NCBI RefSeq assembly: GCF_000376225.1
Contig: NZ_AQXL01000133.1
Span: 1 to 64,000, forward strand
Direction of reading: 5' to 3'
Origin: Effusibacillus pohliae DSM 22757
GTDB taxonomy: Bacteria > Bacillota > Bacilli > Tumebacillales > Effusibacillaceae
Length of the DNA stretch: 64,000 nucleotides
Shown here: piece after piece, positions 54,148-64,000 of the stretch
Layout of the letters: every line of letters starts with the position of its first letter
Position numbering within the stretch: position 1 is the first letter of the stretch
The notes under the pieces: generated by a model
What the model was told of the DNA's origin: nothing
The model's database searches: none
Seen by the model: only the letters and a program-made list of their open reading frames with translations
Program-made: the position numbers and the translations under genes

Positions 54148-54291
54148 AGAACCGTTTCCCTCAGCATACAATAAAACGACCGCAGGTGCTGCAACACCCG
54201 CGGCCGGTACAATAGATTGCCTTCGGGCAGTCGGCTCAATTGGAACGACGATCAGGAATAGACCGCGATCCGATGGCAAGGGCGGTCTATT
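54148..54291 (+). ncRNA. Candidate antisense RNA antitoxin
   Basis: Inferred transcript from the promoter at 54113. It would overlap the 3' untranslated part and stop codon of the toxin mRNA. It ends in this proposal at the 10-bp stem AATAGACCGC / GCGGTCTATT (54257-54291), which has only a weak T-tract. Inside it the toxin terminator hairpin (54180-54203) is shared by both strands. The 3' end is a guess. Confidence 0.35.
54171..54203 (-). terminator. Terminator of the small toxin mRNA
   Basis: CCGC-GGGTG...CACC-TGCGG stem on the minus strand followed by TCGTTTTATT. Confidence 0.5.
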
Positions 54292-54370
54292 TCCGTTTCT
54301 GGAACGACAGTATAGCAACGAGCAACAGCCCGAACGAAATCATCAAAGAGATGGTTTCGTATACTGTCAT
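54287..54370 (-). CDS. Putative holin-like toxin, 27 residues (type I toxin-antitoxin)
   Basis: A very short frame beginning MTVYETISLMISFGLLLVAI and ending SFQKRK: a single membrane helix with a basic tail. This is the pattern of the holin-like/TxpA-type toxins of Bacillota, which insert into the membrane when over-produced. It has an unusually strong ribosome-binding site (AAAGGGGGTGA) and its own promoter (TTGTGA-18-TATACT). A convergent promoter 3' of it gives the expected antisense antitoxin. It lies alone between glcD and a WYL regulator. Confidence 0.75.
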   Translation of the reverse strand: MTVYETISLMISFGLLLVAILSFQKRK

Positions 54371-54435
54371 GGCCTCACCCCCTTTCGAGGGAGTGAGCCG
54401 ACCACCCTTGCGAGCCGATTCTATTGTACAGGTAT

Positions 54436-60302: not shown

Positions 60303-60653
60303 TCATTCAGCGGCAATCAGTTTCTTGATCAGACGCACATCCGTTTCCACTTTGTCCATCCTGGTGAACAGTTCGGCAATTTGAGCCGATTGTTCAGTAT
60401 TGCGGGCGACTTGCTCATAGATCGTGTCGAGTTTGCGATGCACGGCTGCGAGATCCTGCTTGGTTGCAAACTTCTCAAGATCCTGCTTGGTTGCAAACTT
60501 CTCAAGATCCTGCTTGGTTGCAAACTTCTCAAGATCCTGCTTGGTTGCAAACCGCTCAAGATCCTGCTTGGTCACCATGTCAGCTTTCATTTGCTTCATT
60601 TCGGTTTCCATGTGGTCCAGTTTCGCGAGAATTTGTTGCAGTATCTGTTCCAT
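60303..60653 (-). CDS. Small coiled-coil protein with KFATKQDLE repeats
   Basis: A 116-residue charged protein, MEQILQQILAKLDHMETEMK, then a block of 9-residue KFATKQDLE repeats coded by 27-bp DNA repeats, then HRKLDTIYEQVARNTEQSAQ and an ending VETDVRLIKKLIAAE. The ATG at 60653 follows AAAGGTGGTG; GTG codons at 60662-60665 belong to that site. It resembles in design, not in exact sequence, the coiled-coil proteins at 5407 and 22810. KQDLE repeat proteins occur widely in Bacillota with unknown function. Confidence 0.7.
   Translation of the reverse strand: MEQILQQILAKLDHMETEMKQMKADMVTKQDLERFATKQDLEKFATKQDLEKFATKQDLEKFATKQDLAAVHRKLDTIYEQVARNTEQSAQIAELFTRMDKVETDVRLIKKLIAAE
60459..60566 (-). repeat. 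Four tandem 27-bp units
   Basis: Units start at 60459, 60486, 60513 and 60540; three identical, the last with a two-base change. Each encodes nine residues, so length changes stay in frame. Confidence 0.95.
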
Positions 60654-60753
60654 CCGGGTCACCACCTTTCGTCCGTGATATTCCTATCCTACCATACACG
60701 TGTCCCGTTCGAAAGCCGGAACACATATGATTCCGGAAGGGGACGGGAAGAAG

Positions 60754-60841: not shown

Positions 60842-62188
60842 ATGTTCCAGAACTGGAAAAAGATCCTGTTGCTGGCGATTCCCTCGATCGTTTCGTTCGC
60901 GTCGATGACGGTCACCGGCACGATTAATCTGATTTTGGTGGGAAAATTGGGGGCGTTGGCGATCGCCGTCGTCGGCGTATCCAACATCATCATGTATAAC
61001 GCGTGGGCCCTGTTTTCCGGTATCGGCCATACGGTCAACTATCTCGTGGCGCAAAACTATGGCGCGAACGATATGAAAACAGGGGTTGGGCGTACCTACA
61101 TGGCGCTCTATCTGTGTCTGGCGGCCGGGCTGTTCGTGTTGTTGACGGGGGCGGTGGCCAACGACGACATTTTGCGGCTGATGGGCGGTAGCGGCGAACT
61201 GGTGGCGTCCGGCGAGGGGTATTTGCGCCTCCGCTTTTTTGCCATGGTGTGTTCGATCTTCGCGTTTGTGTTTCACGGATTTTTCCGCGGGATCGAGGAT
61301 ACGAAAACGCCGATGGTGATTTCGCTTGCCGCCAATCTGGCGATGATTTTCTTTACATACGGGCTGACGTACGGAAAATGGGGCTTTCCCGAACTGGGGC
61401 TGAACGGCGCCGGCTGGGCGATTTTGCTGGGGGAAGCGATCGGGCTTCTCTGTTGTCTCTATGTATATTTTATCAGGCTGCATCCGCGTTACGGGACGCG
61501 GTCGCGAGTCATGTTCGATTGGGCGGAGTCCAGGCTGATTTTGGCGGAAAGCGGTAAATTGGGCCTGCAGGAATTCGCTTTGAGTGTTTCGATGTTCGTG
61601 TTTACCATGTTTCTTACCCGCTTGGGCACGAACGCGTTGGCGGCCAACGAAGTGGCACTGAATGTGATGGGATTCGGTTTTATGCCGGCGTTTGCGTTCG
61701 GAGCGACGGCGACGCTTCTCGTCGGGCAGGAAGTGGGGAAAGGCAACCCGTTTACGGCAAGGCGGATGGGGACTGACACAGCGGTTTTGGGCAGCGTGTT
61801 CCTGCTGCTGCTCGGACTGGCTGAATTTTCGTTCGCGGAGCCGGTGGCGCGGATTTATTCGGACGACCCGCAGGTATACAAATTGGCAGCAGAGTTGATC
61901 GAGGTGTCCGCTTTTTTGCAAGTGTTTGACGGCCTGCTCAATTTTTATGCGGGCGGCTTGCGGGGGATCGGCGACACCACGTTCCTGCTGAAAACCTCCC
62001 TGGTGCTGAGCTGGCTTCTGTTCATCCCCTTGAGCTACTTGCTGACGTTCGTCTTGGGGCTGCACAGTATCGGCGCCTGGCTGTCACTGTATATTTTTCT
62101 GATGGTGTTTGGACTGACCATGATGATTCGCTATTACCGCGTCGACTGGGAAAATGTGCAGATGAAGTCGGCGGGGCGCGGGGTGTAG
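60842..62188 (+). CDS. MATE-family efflux transporter
   Basis: A 448-residue exporter with 12 membrane segments in two homologous halves, the standard MATE size. Typical segments: IVSFASMTVTGTINLILVGK, VSNIIMYNAWALFSGIG, FFRGIEDTKTPMVISL and GGLRGIGDTTFLLKTSLVLS. It exports cationic drugs or metabolites by Na+ or H+ antiport. AGGGGGACG precedes the ATG. Single-gene unit with its own promoter. Confidence 0.93.
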   Translation: MFQNWKKILLLAIPSIVSFASMTVTGTINLILVGKLGALAIAVVGVSNIIMYNAWALFSGIGHTVNYLVAQNYGANDMKTGVGRTYMALYLCLAAGLFVLLTGAVANDDILRLMGGSGELVASGEGYLRLRFFAMVCSIFAFVFHGFFRGIEDTKTPMVISLAANLAMIFFTYGLTYGKWGFPELGLNGAGWAILLGEAIGLLCCLYVYFIRLHPRYGTRSRVMFDWAESRLILAESGKLGLQEFALSVSMFVFTMFLTRLGTNALAANEVALNVMGFGFMPAFAFGATATLLVGQEVGKGNPFTARRMGTDTAVLGSVFLLLLGLAEFSFAEPVARIYSDDPQVYKLAAELIEVSAFLQVFDGLLNFYAGGLRGIGDTTFLLKTSLVLSWLLFIPLSYLLTFVLGLHSIGAWLSLYIFLMVFGLTMMIRYYRVDWENVQMKSAGRGV

Positions 62189-62313
62189 GGGATGCCGAAT
62201 TGCAAAGCGGCCGGAATCGGAAGCAAGCGGTCAAATTCCTGCAAATGAAGGAGAAAACCAGGAAAAAACAGACAACACAGACAATCACCCGCACAGCCCG
62301 CGTGTTTTTGGCG

Positions 62314-62343
62314 TTGAGAAGCGGCGCCCAATTTTTTTATAGT
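62314..62343 (+). promoter_or_regulatory. Promoter upstream of the sugar nucleotidyltransferase gene
   Basis: TTGAGA, 18 bp, TATAGT. The start would fall near 62350, inside the CIRCE element, giving a 230-nt leader. Confidence 0.65.
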
Positions 62344-62347
62344 ATTG

Positions 62348-62374
62348 CTAGCACTCGATGTAAATGAGTGCTAA
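62348..62374 (+). promoter_or_regulatory. CIRCE element (HrcA operator)
   Basis: CTAGCACTC-9 nt-GAGTGCTAA differs from the CIRCE consensus TTAGCACTC-N9-GAGTGCTAA at one base only and lies at the start point of a good promoter, the normal place. No heat-shock gene is nearby: the next gene is the sugar nucleotidyltransferase at 62583. The gap 62189-62582 holds no other gene. Confidence 0.85.
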
Positions 62375-62582
62375 TAAATAAGCTGACTATTCGGATAATC
62401 GCGTACATAGCCGATCGGGCAAACCGTTATCGTCCCTAGCACCTAGGAAAAACTGAATGTCTGTGCGACAGCAAGAAGGTTGTTCATATTGGAAGGTAGC
62501 TGCAAGCTTTCACTATATGCGCAATGCTTCTTTTTTCATTTTTTCCAGGCGAATCCAATTCCAAATGGAGGAGGACGATACG

Positions 62583-63623
62583 ATGAAAGCATTGTTGTTG
62601 GCTGGTGGTTTGGGTACCCGGTTGCGTCCGTTAACTGAAAATCTGCCAAAACCGATGGCGCCGGTCGGCAACCGCCCGTGGCTGGAACATCTCATTCTGC
62701 ATTTGAAGCAGCAGGGCATCCAGGAGTTTGTGATCGCCGTCAAACATTATCCGGAAATCATCCAAAACCGCCTGGGCGACGGCCGATCCCTCGGTGTCCG
62801 GATCGAGTATTCGGTGGAAGAATCGTTGCTCGGCACCGCCGGCGCGATCAAACATGCGGAGGATCTGCTGAGTGACCGGTTCCTTGTGGTCAATGCGGAC
62901 ATCATTCACCAGGTGTCGATCCTGCCGCTGCTCGAATACCACATCCAGCACAAAGGGTTGGTCACGATCGGTTTGACCGAGGTGGAAGACCCTTCCCACT
63001 ACGGAGTGGTGGAGCAGAACGCGTTTGGCGAGATCCTTCGTTTTGTCGAAAAACCGGCTTTGCACGAAGCGCCTTCCAAACTGGTTAACGCCGGCATCTA
63101 CGTGATGGAAAAAGAAGCACTTCAGTGGATCCCGAAAAACAGGGAGGTGTCGATCGAGCGGGAGACGTTCCCCTTGCTGATCGAACAGAAGGCTGGCGTG
63201 TATGGGAAAACGATCGAGGGGTACTGGCTGGACATGGGCACGAAAGACCGGTACCGCAAGCTGCATTGGGATTTGCTGGACCGCAAGTTCGCGCTGCCTC
63301 TGAAAGAGAAACCGCAAGGCAACGGAATCTGGCTGGGCGAGCACACAACGGTCGGGTCCGGCGTGCTGTTCGTTCCACCTGTTGTCATTGGCGACCATGT
63401 ACATATCGGGGAACGCAGCGTGATCGGCCCGTACGCGGTGATCGGGGATCGGTGTGAAATCGGCAAGCATGTGCGCTGTTCGGAAACCATCCTGTGGGAC
63501 GACTGCAAAGTGCATGACGCCGCCCAGTTAAAAAATTGCATCTTCGGCTACGGCTTGGAGGTGGGAGCCAGCCACATTTTGCACGAGGCGGTGATCAATC
63601 GGATGGCGGGGGTGCAGCGATAA
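62583..63623 (+). CDS. Sugar-1-phosphate nucleotidyltransferase (mannose-1-phosphate guanylyltransferase-like)
   Basis: A 346-residue enzyme that makes a nucleotide sugar from sugar-1-phosphate and NTP. The N-terminal pyrophosphorylase motif GGLGTRLRP, then ENLPKPMAPVGNRPWLEH with the catalytic Lys, LLGTAGAI and FLVVNADII (the metal Asp). The C-terminal third carries left-handed beta-helix hexapeptides (VIGDHVHIGERSVIGPYAVI). The ATG follows GGAGGAGG; an upstream in-frame ATG at 62457 lacks a convincing site. Its stop overlaps the next glycosyltransferase start. Likely first gene of a glycan cluster. Confidence 0.9.
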   Translation: MKALLLAGGLGTRLRPLTENLPKPMAPVGNRPWLEHLILHLKQQGIQEFVIAVKHYPEIIQNRLGDGRSLGVRIEYSVEESLLGTAGAIKHAEDLLSDRFLVVNADIIHQVSILPLLEYHIQHKGLVTIGLTEVEDPSHYGVVEQNAFGEILRFVEKPALHEAPSKLVNAGIYVMEKEALQWIPKNREVSIERETFPLLIEQKAGVYGKTIEGYWLDMGTKDRYRKLHWDLLDRKFALPLKEKPQGNGIWLGEHTTVGSGVLFVPPVVIGDHVHIGERSVIGPYAVIGDRCEIGKHVRCSETILWDDCKVHDAAQLKNCIFGYGLEVGASHILHEAVINRMAGVQR

Positions 63624-64000
63624 TGCAAGTGGCATATGTCAGCACGTACGTTCCGAAAAAATGCGGTTTGGCAACTTACACACACCATTTGCGGCAAAAC
63701 GTGAAAGACGCGAGATGGTGGAAAGGGATGGATCCCGTAATTGTCCTCAGCGACGGCAACGATCAGACGGATCCCGGCAATCCGGCCCTCTGGCCGCTGC
63801 CGAAAGAGCAGCGTGACGCGTATGCAAAAATGGCCGACAAAATCAACCAAAGCGATGTGTCCCTGGTTTCTTTGCAGCATGAGTTCGGCATTTTTGGCGG
63901 GGAAGCGGGCGCTTACATTCTGGATTTTGTACGGCAACTGAAAAAGCCTTTGATCACCACTTTTCACACCGTATTCGAAAATCCGGCCGAACCCTACCGT
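63623..64000 (+). CDS. Glycosyltransferase family 4, N-terminal part (runs off window)
   Basis: 126 codons are visible and the frame is open at the window end. VAYVSTYVPKKCGLATYTHH is the GT-B N-terminal nucleotide-binding strand and loop typical of GT4 enzymes with the CGIA/CGLAT motif, and VSLVSLQHEFGIFGGEAGAY with FHTVFENP follows. The start ATG shares TAATG with the stop of the nucleotidyltransferase gene. It probably uses the sugar nucleotide made by that enzyme. Confidence 0.88.
   Translation, partial: MQVAYVSTYVPKKCGLATYTHHLRQNVKDARWWKGMDPVIVLSDGNDQTDPGNPALWPLPKEQRDAYAKMADKINQSDVSLVSLQHEFGIFGGEAGAYILDFVRQLKKPLITTFHTVFENPAEPYR

Follow-up and report, generated by a model that had tools for sequence, protein, structure and literature searches.

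A CIRCE operator precedes a predicted GDP-mannose and glycosyltransferase operon in Effusibacillus pohliae and is conserved at orthologous loci in ten families

The DNA analysed here, called the window, is a stretch of 64,000 nucleotides of Effusibacillus pohliae DSM 22757. Window coordinates are the same as contig coordinates, and the end of the window falls inside an operon whose genes encode, in this order, a sugar nucleotidyltransferase, a GT4 glycosyltransferase, a protein of (alpha/alpha)6 fold (ORF3), a phosphomannomutase (PMM) and ManA. The operon ends at about contig position 68428. Its features, and those of the region in front of it, are the following.

62314..62343, plus strand: sigma-A-like promoter TTGAGA-18-TATAGT (10/12 matches)
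62348..62374, no strand assigned: CIRCE operator CTAGCACTC-GATGTAAAT-GAGTGCTAA, found by pattern searches and kept in orthologous loci
62473..62535, plus strand: attenuator-like leader hairpin with a U run (AAGAAG-N2-TGTTCATA ... TATG-N-GCAA-N-GCTTCTTTTTT), shared by eight leaders from three families
62567..62574, plus strand: ribosome binding site GGAGGAGG, read from the sequence; start codon at 62583
62583..63623, plus strand: sugar nucleotidyltransferase, mannose-1-phosphate guanylyltransferase-like, with left-handed beta-helix repeats, 346 aa (Pfam PF00483 and Hexapep)
63623..64000, continuing to contig position 64816 (L011:3623-4816), plus strand: GT4 glycosyltransferase, 126 of 397 codons within the window (Pfam Glycos_transf_1)
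about 64836..65918, plus strand: ORF3, (alpha/alpha)6-fold protein according to the fold model of a Cohnella homologue
about 65962..67383, plus strand: phosphomannomutase, under the cut-off of every NCBIfam model listed
67466..68428, plus strand: ManA (mannose-6-phosphate isomerase), passing the curated score

The nucleotidyltransferase contains both the NTP_transferase domain and the hexapeptide left-handed helix. Its best NCBIfam model was NF052502 (E 4.5e-76), and since the score of 256 bits is under the cut-off of 440, the protein is labelled only as mannose-1-phosphate guanylyltransferase-like. Its nearest solved relatives are mannose-1-phosphate guanylyltransferases (8yre, 1.3e-51), and the PMM and ManA genes of the operon favour GTP and mannose-1-phosphate as the probable substrates. 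The stop codon of this gene overlaps the start codon of the GT4 gene (TAATG). In the PDB the GT4 profile matched a number of GT4 enzymes, including the GDP-mannose-dependent PimA (9.2e-11) and, slightly better, Tll1590 (5.3e-12). No match was obtained when ORF3 of this genome was compared with Pfam and NCBIfam. Among 33 homologues of ORF3, eight matched GH127 weakly (best 7.2e-5) and seven GH88 weakly (best 7.3e-5), and a profile search of the PDB gave a single match, 7tem (1.4e-15). The model of a Cohnella homologue (pLDDT 74, pTM 0.79) folds as an (alpha/alpha)6 toroid; in structural comparison the unassigned exported protein 7tem came first (Z 28.6, 3.2 A over 317 residues), followed by GH76 mannanases and sugar 2-epimerases (Z about 20-24). 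The resemblance of ORF3 to the GH76 and AGE epimerase families is one of fold, without a sequence-family match. No promoter-like sites were found on the plus strand from 63600 to the ManA stop codon. Just past ManA there is a terminator-like hairpin at 68483-68499, for which a role as operon terminator has weak support; terminator-like sites numbered 16 in the operon region as compared to 10.4 in shuffled sequences.

A gene for a MATE transporter (60842-62188, plus strand) stands directly ahead of the operon promoter. A MATE homologue (46-48% identity) is located past ORF3 or the cluster in three relatives of family f11 (G059, G199 and G140; loci L141, L228 and L229; genomes, loci, contigs and families are cited by our own handles). 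Past ManA, at a distance, a gene for a LacI-type regulator is followed by a GH130 mannobiose phosphorylase gene (contig C133, 68792-71295; NF050092, 625 bits, cut-off 550), and promoter-like sites occur some 340-380 nt upstream of the latter. The same contig carries a second, longer nucleotidyltransferase paralogue at 96152-97174 (819 aa frame, 37% identity). Within the window, a small protein with KFATKQDLE-type tandem repeats is encoded at 60303-60665 (minus strand), between an AAA gene and the MATE gene. At 54181-54428 (minus strand) the Rfam family BsrG (RF01412) was matched with 117 bits (E 3.3e-27), and a short frame on the same strand encodes a small hydrophobic peptide; this looks like a type I toxin-antitoxin locus.

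HrcA with its operator CIRCE is the textbook switch for protein chaperones. The mechanism of HrcA and the CIRCE consensus are taken from PMC3842655. An earlier note on this DNA had claimed that a CIRCE element one base off the consensus lies on the start point of a TTGAGA-18-TATAGT promoter, and that a mannose-1-phosphate guanylyltransferase-like gene and a GT4 gene follow. All of this was borne out. The sequence at 62348-62374 is CTAGCACTC-N9-GAGTGCTAA, which differs from TTAGCACTC-N9-GAGTGCTAA at one of 18 arm positions, and the two genes are present at 62583-63623 and from 63623. The site overlaps or follows the sigma-A-like promoter, as a CIRCE element should: the -10 box ends 4 nt upstream of it, so that transcription would begin within the left arm. 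The region 61500-64000 contained 2 promoter-like sites versus 1.5 in shuffles, hence the match to TTGAGA-18-TATAGT is by itself not beyond chance.

When up to three mismatches over the 18 arm positions were allowed, 62348-62374 was the sole match within the 64,000-nt window, and none was found in 100 dinucleotide shuffles of the window. At the same stringency the whole genome (3.36 Mb, 135 contigs, 99.85% complete) contained exactly three sites, those of hrcA (L001), groES-groEL (L002) and the sugar operon, and the reversed pattern gave no site. A looser genome search (14 positions, up to three mismatches) returned mostly noise (52 matches versus 41 for the reversed pattern); its exact matches were again the same three sites. 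The genome encodes HrcA (TIGR00331, 376 bits, cut-off 197). We regard the operator and its conservation, described below, as firm, and infer, as very likely, that HrcA binds at 62348-62374 and that the operon is heat-inducible.

The earlier note had raised the question whether groESL or dnaK of this genome also carry CIRCE. As the other two sites proved to be those of groES and hrcA, the sugar operon is the third predicted member of the HrcA regulon. Fifty CIRCE loci with at most one mismatch on the core, three from this genome and 47 from relatives, were sampled: 24 were beside hrcA, 19 beside groES, two were sugar operons (our own and that of G007) and five were others. Four of these five have a perfect CIRCE ahead of a putative htpG (Hsp90) gene, recognized from the protein sequence (L016, L028, L038 and L067, at about 1501-1525). 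The 61 genomes concerned, E. pohliae included, contain 2-4 such sites each. With so few CIRCE loci, most of them at hrcA or groES, the regulon is small and tied to stress, and a conserved sugar operon stands out in it.

Conservation of the site was assessed in 398 genomes spread evenly over the class. The nucleotidyltransferase was found at 1e-75 or better in 47 of them (48 matches); eight matches were dropped as a different, longer protein (open frames of 799-882 aa), leaving 40 loci. For each locus the 600 nt upstream were searched, and the best CIRCE-like site was scored over 16 core arm positions with an N9 spacer. A CIRCE or near-CIRCE site (0-3 mismatches in 16, always N9) was present at 32 of the 40 loci, in 10 families, which answers in the affirmative the earlier note's question about relatives. 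Ten loci had no mismatch, three had one, 12 had two and seven had three, so that 19 of the 32 sites deviate at two or three core positions; the remaining eight loci had 6-8 mismatches. Core arms with at most one mismatch were seen throughout families f1, f5 and f25 and at five of six f26 loci. With up to three mismatches, the reversed pattern was found at 0 of the same 40 upstream regions, the true pattern at 0 of 40 stretches of 600 nt of coding sequence from the same loci, and mononucleotide shuffles matched in 6 of 2000 cases. Other spacers (5-8 and 10-13) with the same arms gave 0 or 1 of 40 loci each, as compared to 32 with a spacer of 9. The distance between site and start codon ranged from 50 to 331 nt. 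A promoter (at least 8/12) whose -10 box ends at most 15 nt from the site was found in 26 of 32 loci versus 209 of 1600 shuffled sequences; the six loci without it were the three of f25, both of f10 and that of G095. Among the site-bearing loci, identity of the nucleotidyltransferase goes down to 45%.

Of the eight loci without a site, five make up the whole of f29, and f6, f19 and f11 contribute one apiece; the f11 locus is a match that lacks GT4 and ORF3. GT4 and ORF3 follow downstream in 39 of 40 loci. In the retrieved stretches PMM was present at 21 of the 40 loci, ManA at 25, and either or both at 31. PMM or ManA was nearby in 31 of 32 loci with the site versus 0 of 8 without, indicating that within these 40 loci the operator accompanies GDP-mannose genes. 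Using the GT4 protein as query, 58 matches were obtained in 56 of the 398 genomes, 19 of them outside the 40 loci and covered by 18 further regions. Eleven of these regions, which have no nucleotidyltransferase match, contain the site (1-2 mismatches) and seven do not; six of the 11 belong to genus g12 of family f11, with the site about 197 nt ahead of GT4. Since PMM and ManA were seen in only one of the 18 regions (that of G270, which has the site) and in none of the seven site-less ones, the association between operator and GDP-mannose genes does not extend to them.

Nineteen Cohnella loci (64-67% identity) keep the order nucleotidyltransferase-GT4-ORF3, and no site with up to three mismatches was found in any of the 19. 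In G003, a genome of the same genus as the window (420 contigs, 95% complete), the operon was not found, and only the groES and hrcA sites were present. In a tree of GT4 proteins (62 rows, five of them Cohnella) presence of the site was clustered and required six changes; several forks were open and there were long-branch warnings, and a single origin of the site is therefore not claimed. The state of the site in f29/f6, f8 and Cohnella may reflect loss or gain.

In four families (f11, f16, f34 and f40) most sites have one arm changed to TTAGCAGCC or TTATCAGCC. The sole f16 locus and the majority of f11 loci have TTAGCAGCC-N9-GAGTGCTAA, and the f34 and f40 loci have TTATCAGCC. The change is consistent, with TTA(G/T)CAG(C/A)C at 15 of 15 loci. 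In the 398 genomes the altered form occurs in 23, once in each, ahead of the nucleotidyltransferase (14 genomes), GT4 (6) or ino1 (3), and the alteration is found in the left or in the right arm of the repeat. The f11 genomes G019 and G042, which have the altered form, also contain two perfect CIRCE each; in G019, G042 and G059 there are two or three perfect CIRCE elsewhere, and the one that was read in each belongs to hrcA or groES. The two changed bases break stem pairs of the repeat and the other arm does not compensate, which argues for a DNA operator rather than an RNA stem. The altered element is probably a weaker HrcA site.

Between CIRCE and the start codon, two different conserved types of leader structure were predicted. 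The U-run hairpin (63-88 nt) was found at eight loci of f1, f5 and f26, including the window. Run on 16 genomes with E up to 0.1, a model built from these eight leaders (R1; 150 candidates scored per genome) matched those eight places and the reverse strand of seven, and nothing else. Covariation was slight, with 1 of 17 predicted pairs changed on both sides in eight sequences, and the closing stem aligned poorly, so the structure rests on single folds. A search of the window leader for known RNA families found none in Rfam, either at the gathering score or with E relaxed to 1. For the ribosome site of this leader the predicted probability of being unpaired rose from 0.12 at 37 °C to 0.43 at 65 °C; as 30% of shuffles were equally closed, an RNA thermometer is not supported here. 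In the predicted folds of f11, f34 and f38, a CUUUCAU-like segment pairs with the start AUGAARG and a UCUCU-like segment with the ribosome site. All bases of the start codon were paired in 14 of the 16 folds predicted for f11, f34, f38 and f40, as compared to 7 of 24 others. Arm-shuffle duplex z-scores of the relatives' hairpins were strong only in f38 and otherwise modest or weak. Predicted hairpins that would hide the ribosome site and start codon of the nucleotidyltransferase are located at L143:1925-2023, L137:1999-2097 and L135:9791-9889 (minus strand), and in relatives. The f11, f34 and f38 hairpin is thus a lead, a candidate RNA thermometer by its predicted fold, and the folds of both types suggest that the leader might serve as a second layer of control after HrcA.

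CIRCE-like sites were also found ahead of genes for the synthesis of di-myo-inositol-phosphate (DIP). The inositol-phosphate synthase gene ino1 was present at 1e-60 or better in 10 of the 398 genomes; at this threshold the E. pohliae genome gave no match. Five of the ten have a CIRCE-like site (2-3 mismatches) 211-257 nt upstream of ino1. In five genomes ino1 adjoins a gene for the bifunctional IPCT/DIPPS (DIP synthase), the arrangement expected of a DIP pathway, and the site was present in 5 of 5 of these versus 0 of 5 without IPCT/DIPPS (Fisher p 0.008, the five site-bearing genomes coming from three genera only). For one of the five site-less genomes just 308 nt of upstream sequence was available; this is G003, which has ino1 and in which no site was found within the 308 nt. 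In G036 and G054 the order on one strand is groEL, site, ino1, IPCT/DIPPS. The IPCT/DIPPS of G080 matched the solved enzyme 4mnd (3.8e-57) and the NCBIfam model NF041135 (1.7e-87) below its cut-off; two such proteins scored 294 and 263 bits with this model, the cut-off being 580. The 56 genomes with GT4 and the ten with ino1 do not overlap, which on its own proves little because an overlap of only about 1.4 is expected by chance. By its title, a study of Esteves et al. (2014) is said to have found DIP and mannosylglycerate interchangeable in heat adaptation of Pyrococcus furiosus. Both compounds are described as thermolytes in PMC4685198. The CIRCE-like sites on DIP genes are our main reason for reading the mannose operon as a thermoprotectant pathway.

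These observations are compatible with the following mechanism. At normal temperature HrcA would occupy the CIRCE element where transcription begins and keep the operon silent. Upon heat shock GroESL would be occupied by unfolded proteins and HrcA would be released, so that the operon would be transcribed along with groESL and the hrcA operon. Its enzymes would convert fructose-6-phosphate to GDP-mannose and then to a mannose-containing product, which might be a small soluble thermoprotectant (compatible solute), the counterpart of DIP in some relatives. On balance we lean towards this reading as a whole, i.e. a working HrcA operator and an operon released by heat shock that makes a mannose product, most likely a small soluble thermoprotectant; the mannose product and the physiological role are deduced from the gene content. 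The proposal of the earlier note, heat-induced glycan synthesis under HrcA control, is supported by the sequence comparisons as far as HrcA, heat and a sugar operon are concerned. Since the same kind of site precedes DIP-synthesis genes, "glycan" may be better replaced by a small mannose-containing solute. Control by HrcA has against it the 8 of 40 loci, 7 of 18 further GT4 regions and 19 of 19 Cohnella loci that lack the site, as well as the 19 imperfect sites among the 32; the GDP-mannose route has against it the low NCBIfam score of the first enzyme and the rarity of PMM and ManA in the further GT4 regions; and the thermoprotectant has against it that a surface glycan fits the operon genes too and that a MATE gene is adjacent.

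Such a surface or wall glycan (capsule, S-layer or teichuronic-type mannan), placed under HrcA so that the envelope is repaired after heat, is a possible product, though we consider it rather doubtful. GT4 genes are frequent in surface glycan clusters, and weak matches to the NCBIfam models TuaC and EpsE were seen. The MATE family belongs to a superfamily related to sugar flippases, and the MATE gene lies just ahead of the promoter here and past the cluster in three f11 relatives. Capsule genes are among those altered in ctsR or hrcA mutants of L. plantarum, according to PMC3842655. On the other hand, the family-matched genes from the promoter to the ManA stop include no polymerase or exporter, and the parallel sites are on DIP genes, which serve a cytoplasmic solute pathway. 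An intracellular storage mannan, made by the operon and degraded by the (alpha/alpha)6 protein or the downstream GH130 enzyme, would account for the resemblance of the ORF3 model to GH76 alpha-mannanases and sugar epimerases, the weak GH127 and GH88 matches of its homologues, and the mannobiose phosphorylase gene downstream. It is unlikely, however: the GH130 gene stands behind a separate LacI-type gene and has a homologue near just 7 of 40 loci, and the best match of the ORF3 model is 7tem rather than GH76, in a fold that does not fix function.

Two explanations dispense with HrcA control. The palindrome might be kept for another factor or as an mRNA-stability hairpin, as the consistent altered arm in f11, f16, f34 and f40 could suggest, when G019, G042 and G059 have perfect CIRCE elsewhere. 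This is very unlikely, given that the altered arm breaks two stem pairs without compensation and the change can be on either side, and that families f1, f5 and f25, like all but one of the six f26 loci, keep core arms with no more than one mismatch. The site might also be the relic of a chaperone gene, since deleted, with the sugar operon behind it by accident; in the CIRCE sample 43 of 50 loci are indeed those of hrcA or groES, and four more were read as htpG. The earlier note had named a groES fragment deleted between 62374 and 62583 as the event that would overturn its reading. GroES and GroEL queries gave no match to 62189-62620 even at E 1000; a weak HrcA match upstream of the site (35 aa, 34%, E 0.021) was taken as chance. 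The absence of a GroES or GroEL remnant from 62189-62620, and an arrangement kept across 10 families even where the nucleotidyltransferases are as little as 45% identical, rule out a groES relic, and we give a chaperone relic of any kind hardly any credence.

Among known systems, the CIRCE/HrcA regulon of Bacillota (groESL and hrcA-grpE-dnaK-dnaJ) is the closest: it shares the operator, the N9 spacer, the position at a promoter and the presence of HrcA in the genome. It differs in that the target here is a GDP-mannose and glycosyltransferase operon without a chaperone, and in that one arm is altered in several families. The DIP pathway (ino1 and IPCT/DIPPS) follows a CIRCE-like site in five of the 398 genomes, and ino1 was not found at 1e-60 in the window genome. 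The mannosylglycerate pathway of thermophiles resembles the proposed one in using GDP-mannose as donor; to our knowledge the known mannosylglycerate synthases belong to other glycosyltransferase families, whereas the enzyme of the operon is a GT4. Mannosylglycerate, as the product of the operon may be, is a solute tied to heat (PMC4685198). The PimA-type GDP-mannose-dependent GT4 enzymes are a remote profile match (9.2e-11), and no phosphatidylinositol gene was seen in the operon. In heat-shocked Pyrococcus furiosus, myo-inositol-1-phosphate synthase, an enzyme of the route to DIP, was induced with a log2FC of 4.0, together with HSP20 and VAT1, and some of the heat-shock genes named are under Phr (PMC10746257, in the part consulted). 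If inositol-phosphate synthase is among the Phr genes, the Phr regulon works alike; it is archaeal, its repressor and operator are unrelated, and a mannose operon is not mentioned in that part of PMC10746257. In the open-licence PMC literature (titles and abstract openings), no link of HrcA or CIRCE to the synthesis of GDP-mannose, DIP or compatible solutes was found among the matches listed.

Extended to the relatives, the proposal, which is tentative and to which we give somewhat less than an even chance, is that in many Bacilli HrcA governs both chaperones and a thermoprotectant, a GT4-made mannose compound in most lineages and DIP in others, with softened CIRCE sites for tuning and, in several families, a start-codon hairpin as a second heat control. 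If true, protein repair and solute protection would be wired in bacteria to one sensor, the load on GroEL, and the synthesis of chemical chaperones would be under HrcA, perhaps in the manner of the archaeon Pyrococcus furiosus. It would further imply that a heat-induced mannose compound and the enzymes that make it await description, having been reached through the operator and not through a protein family.
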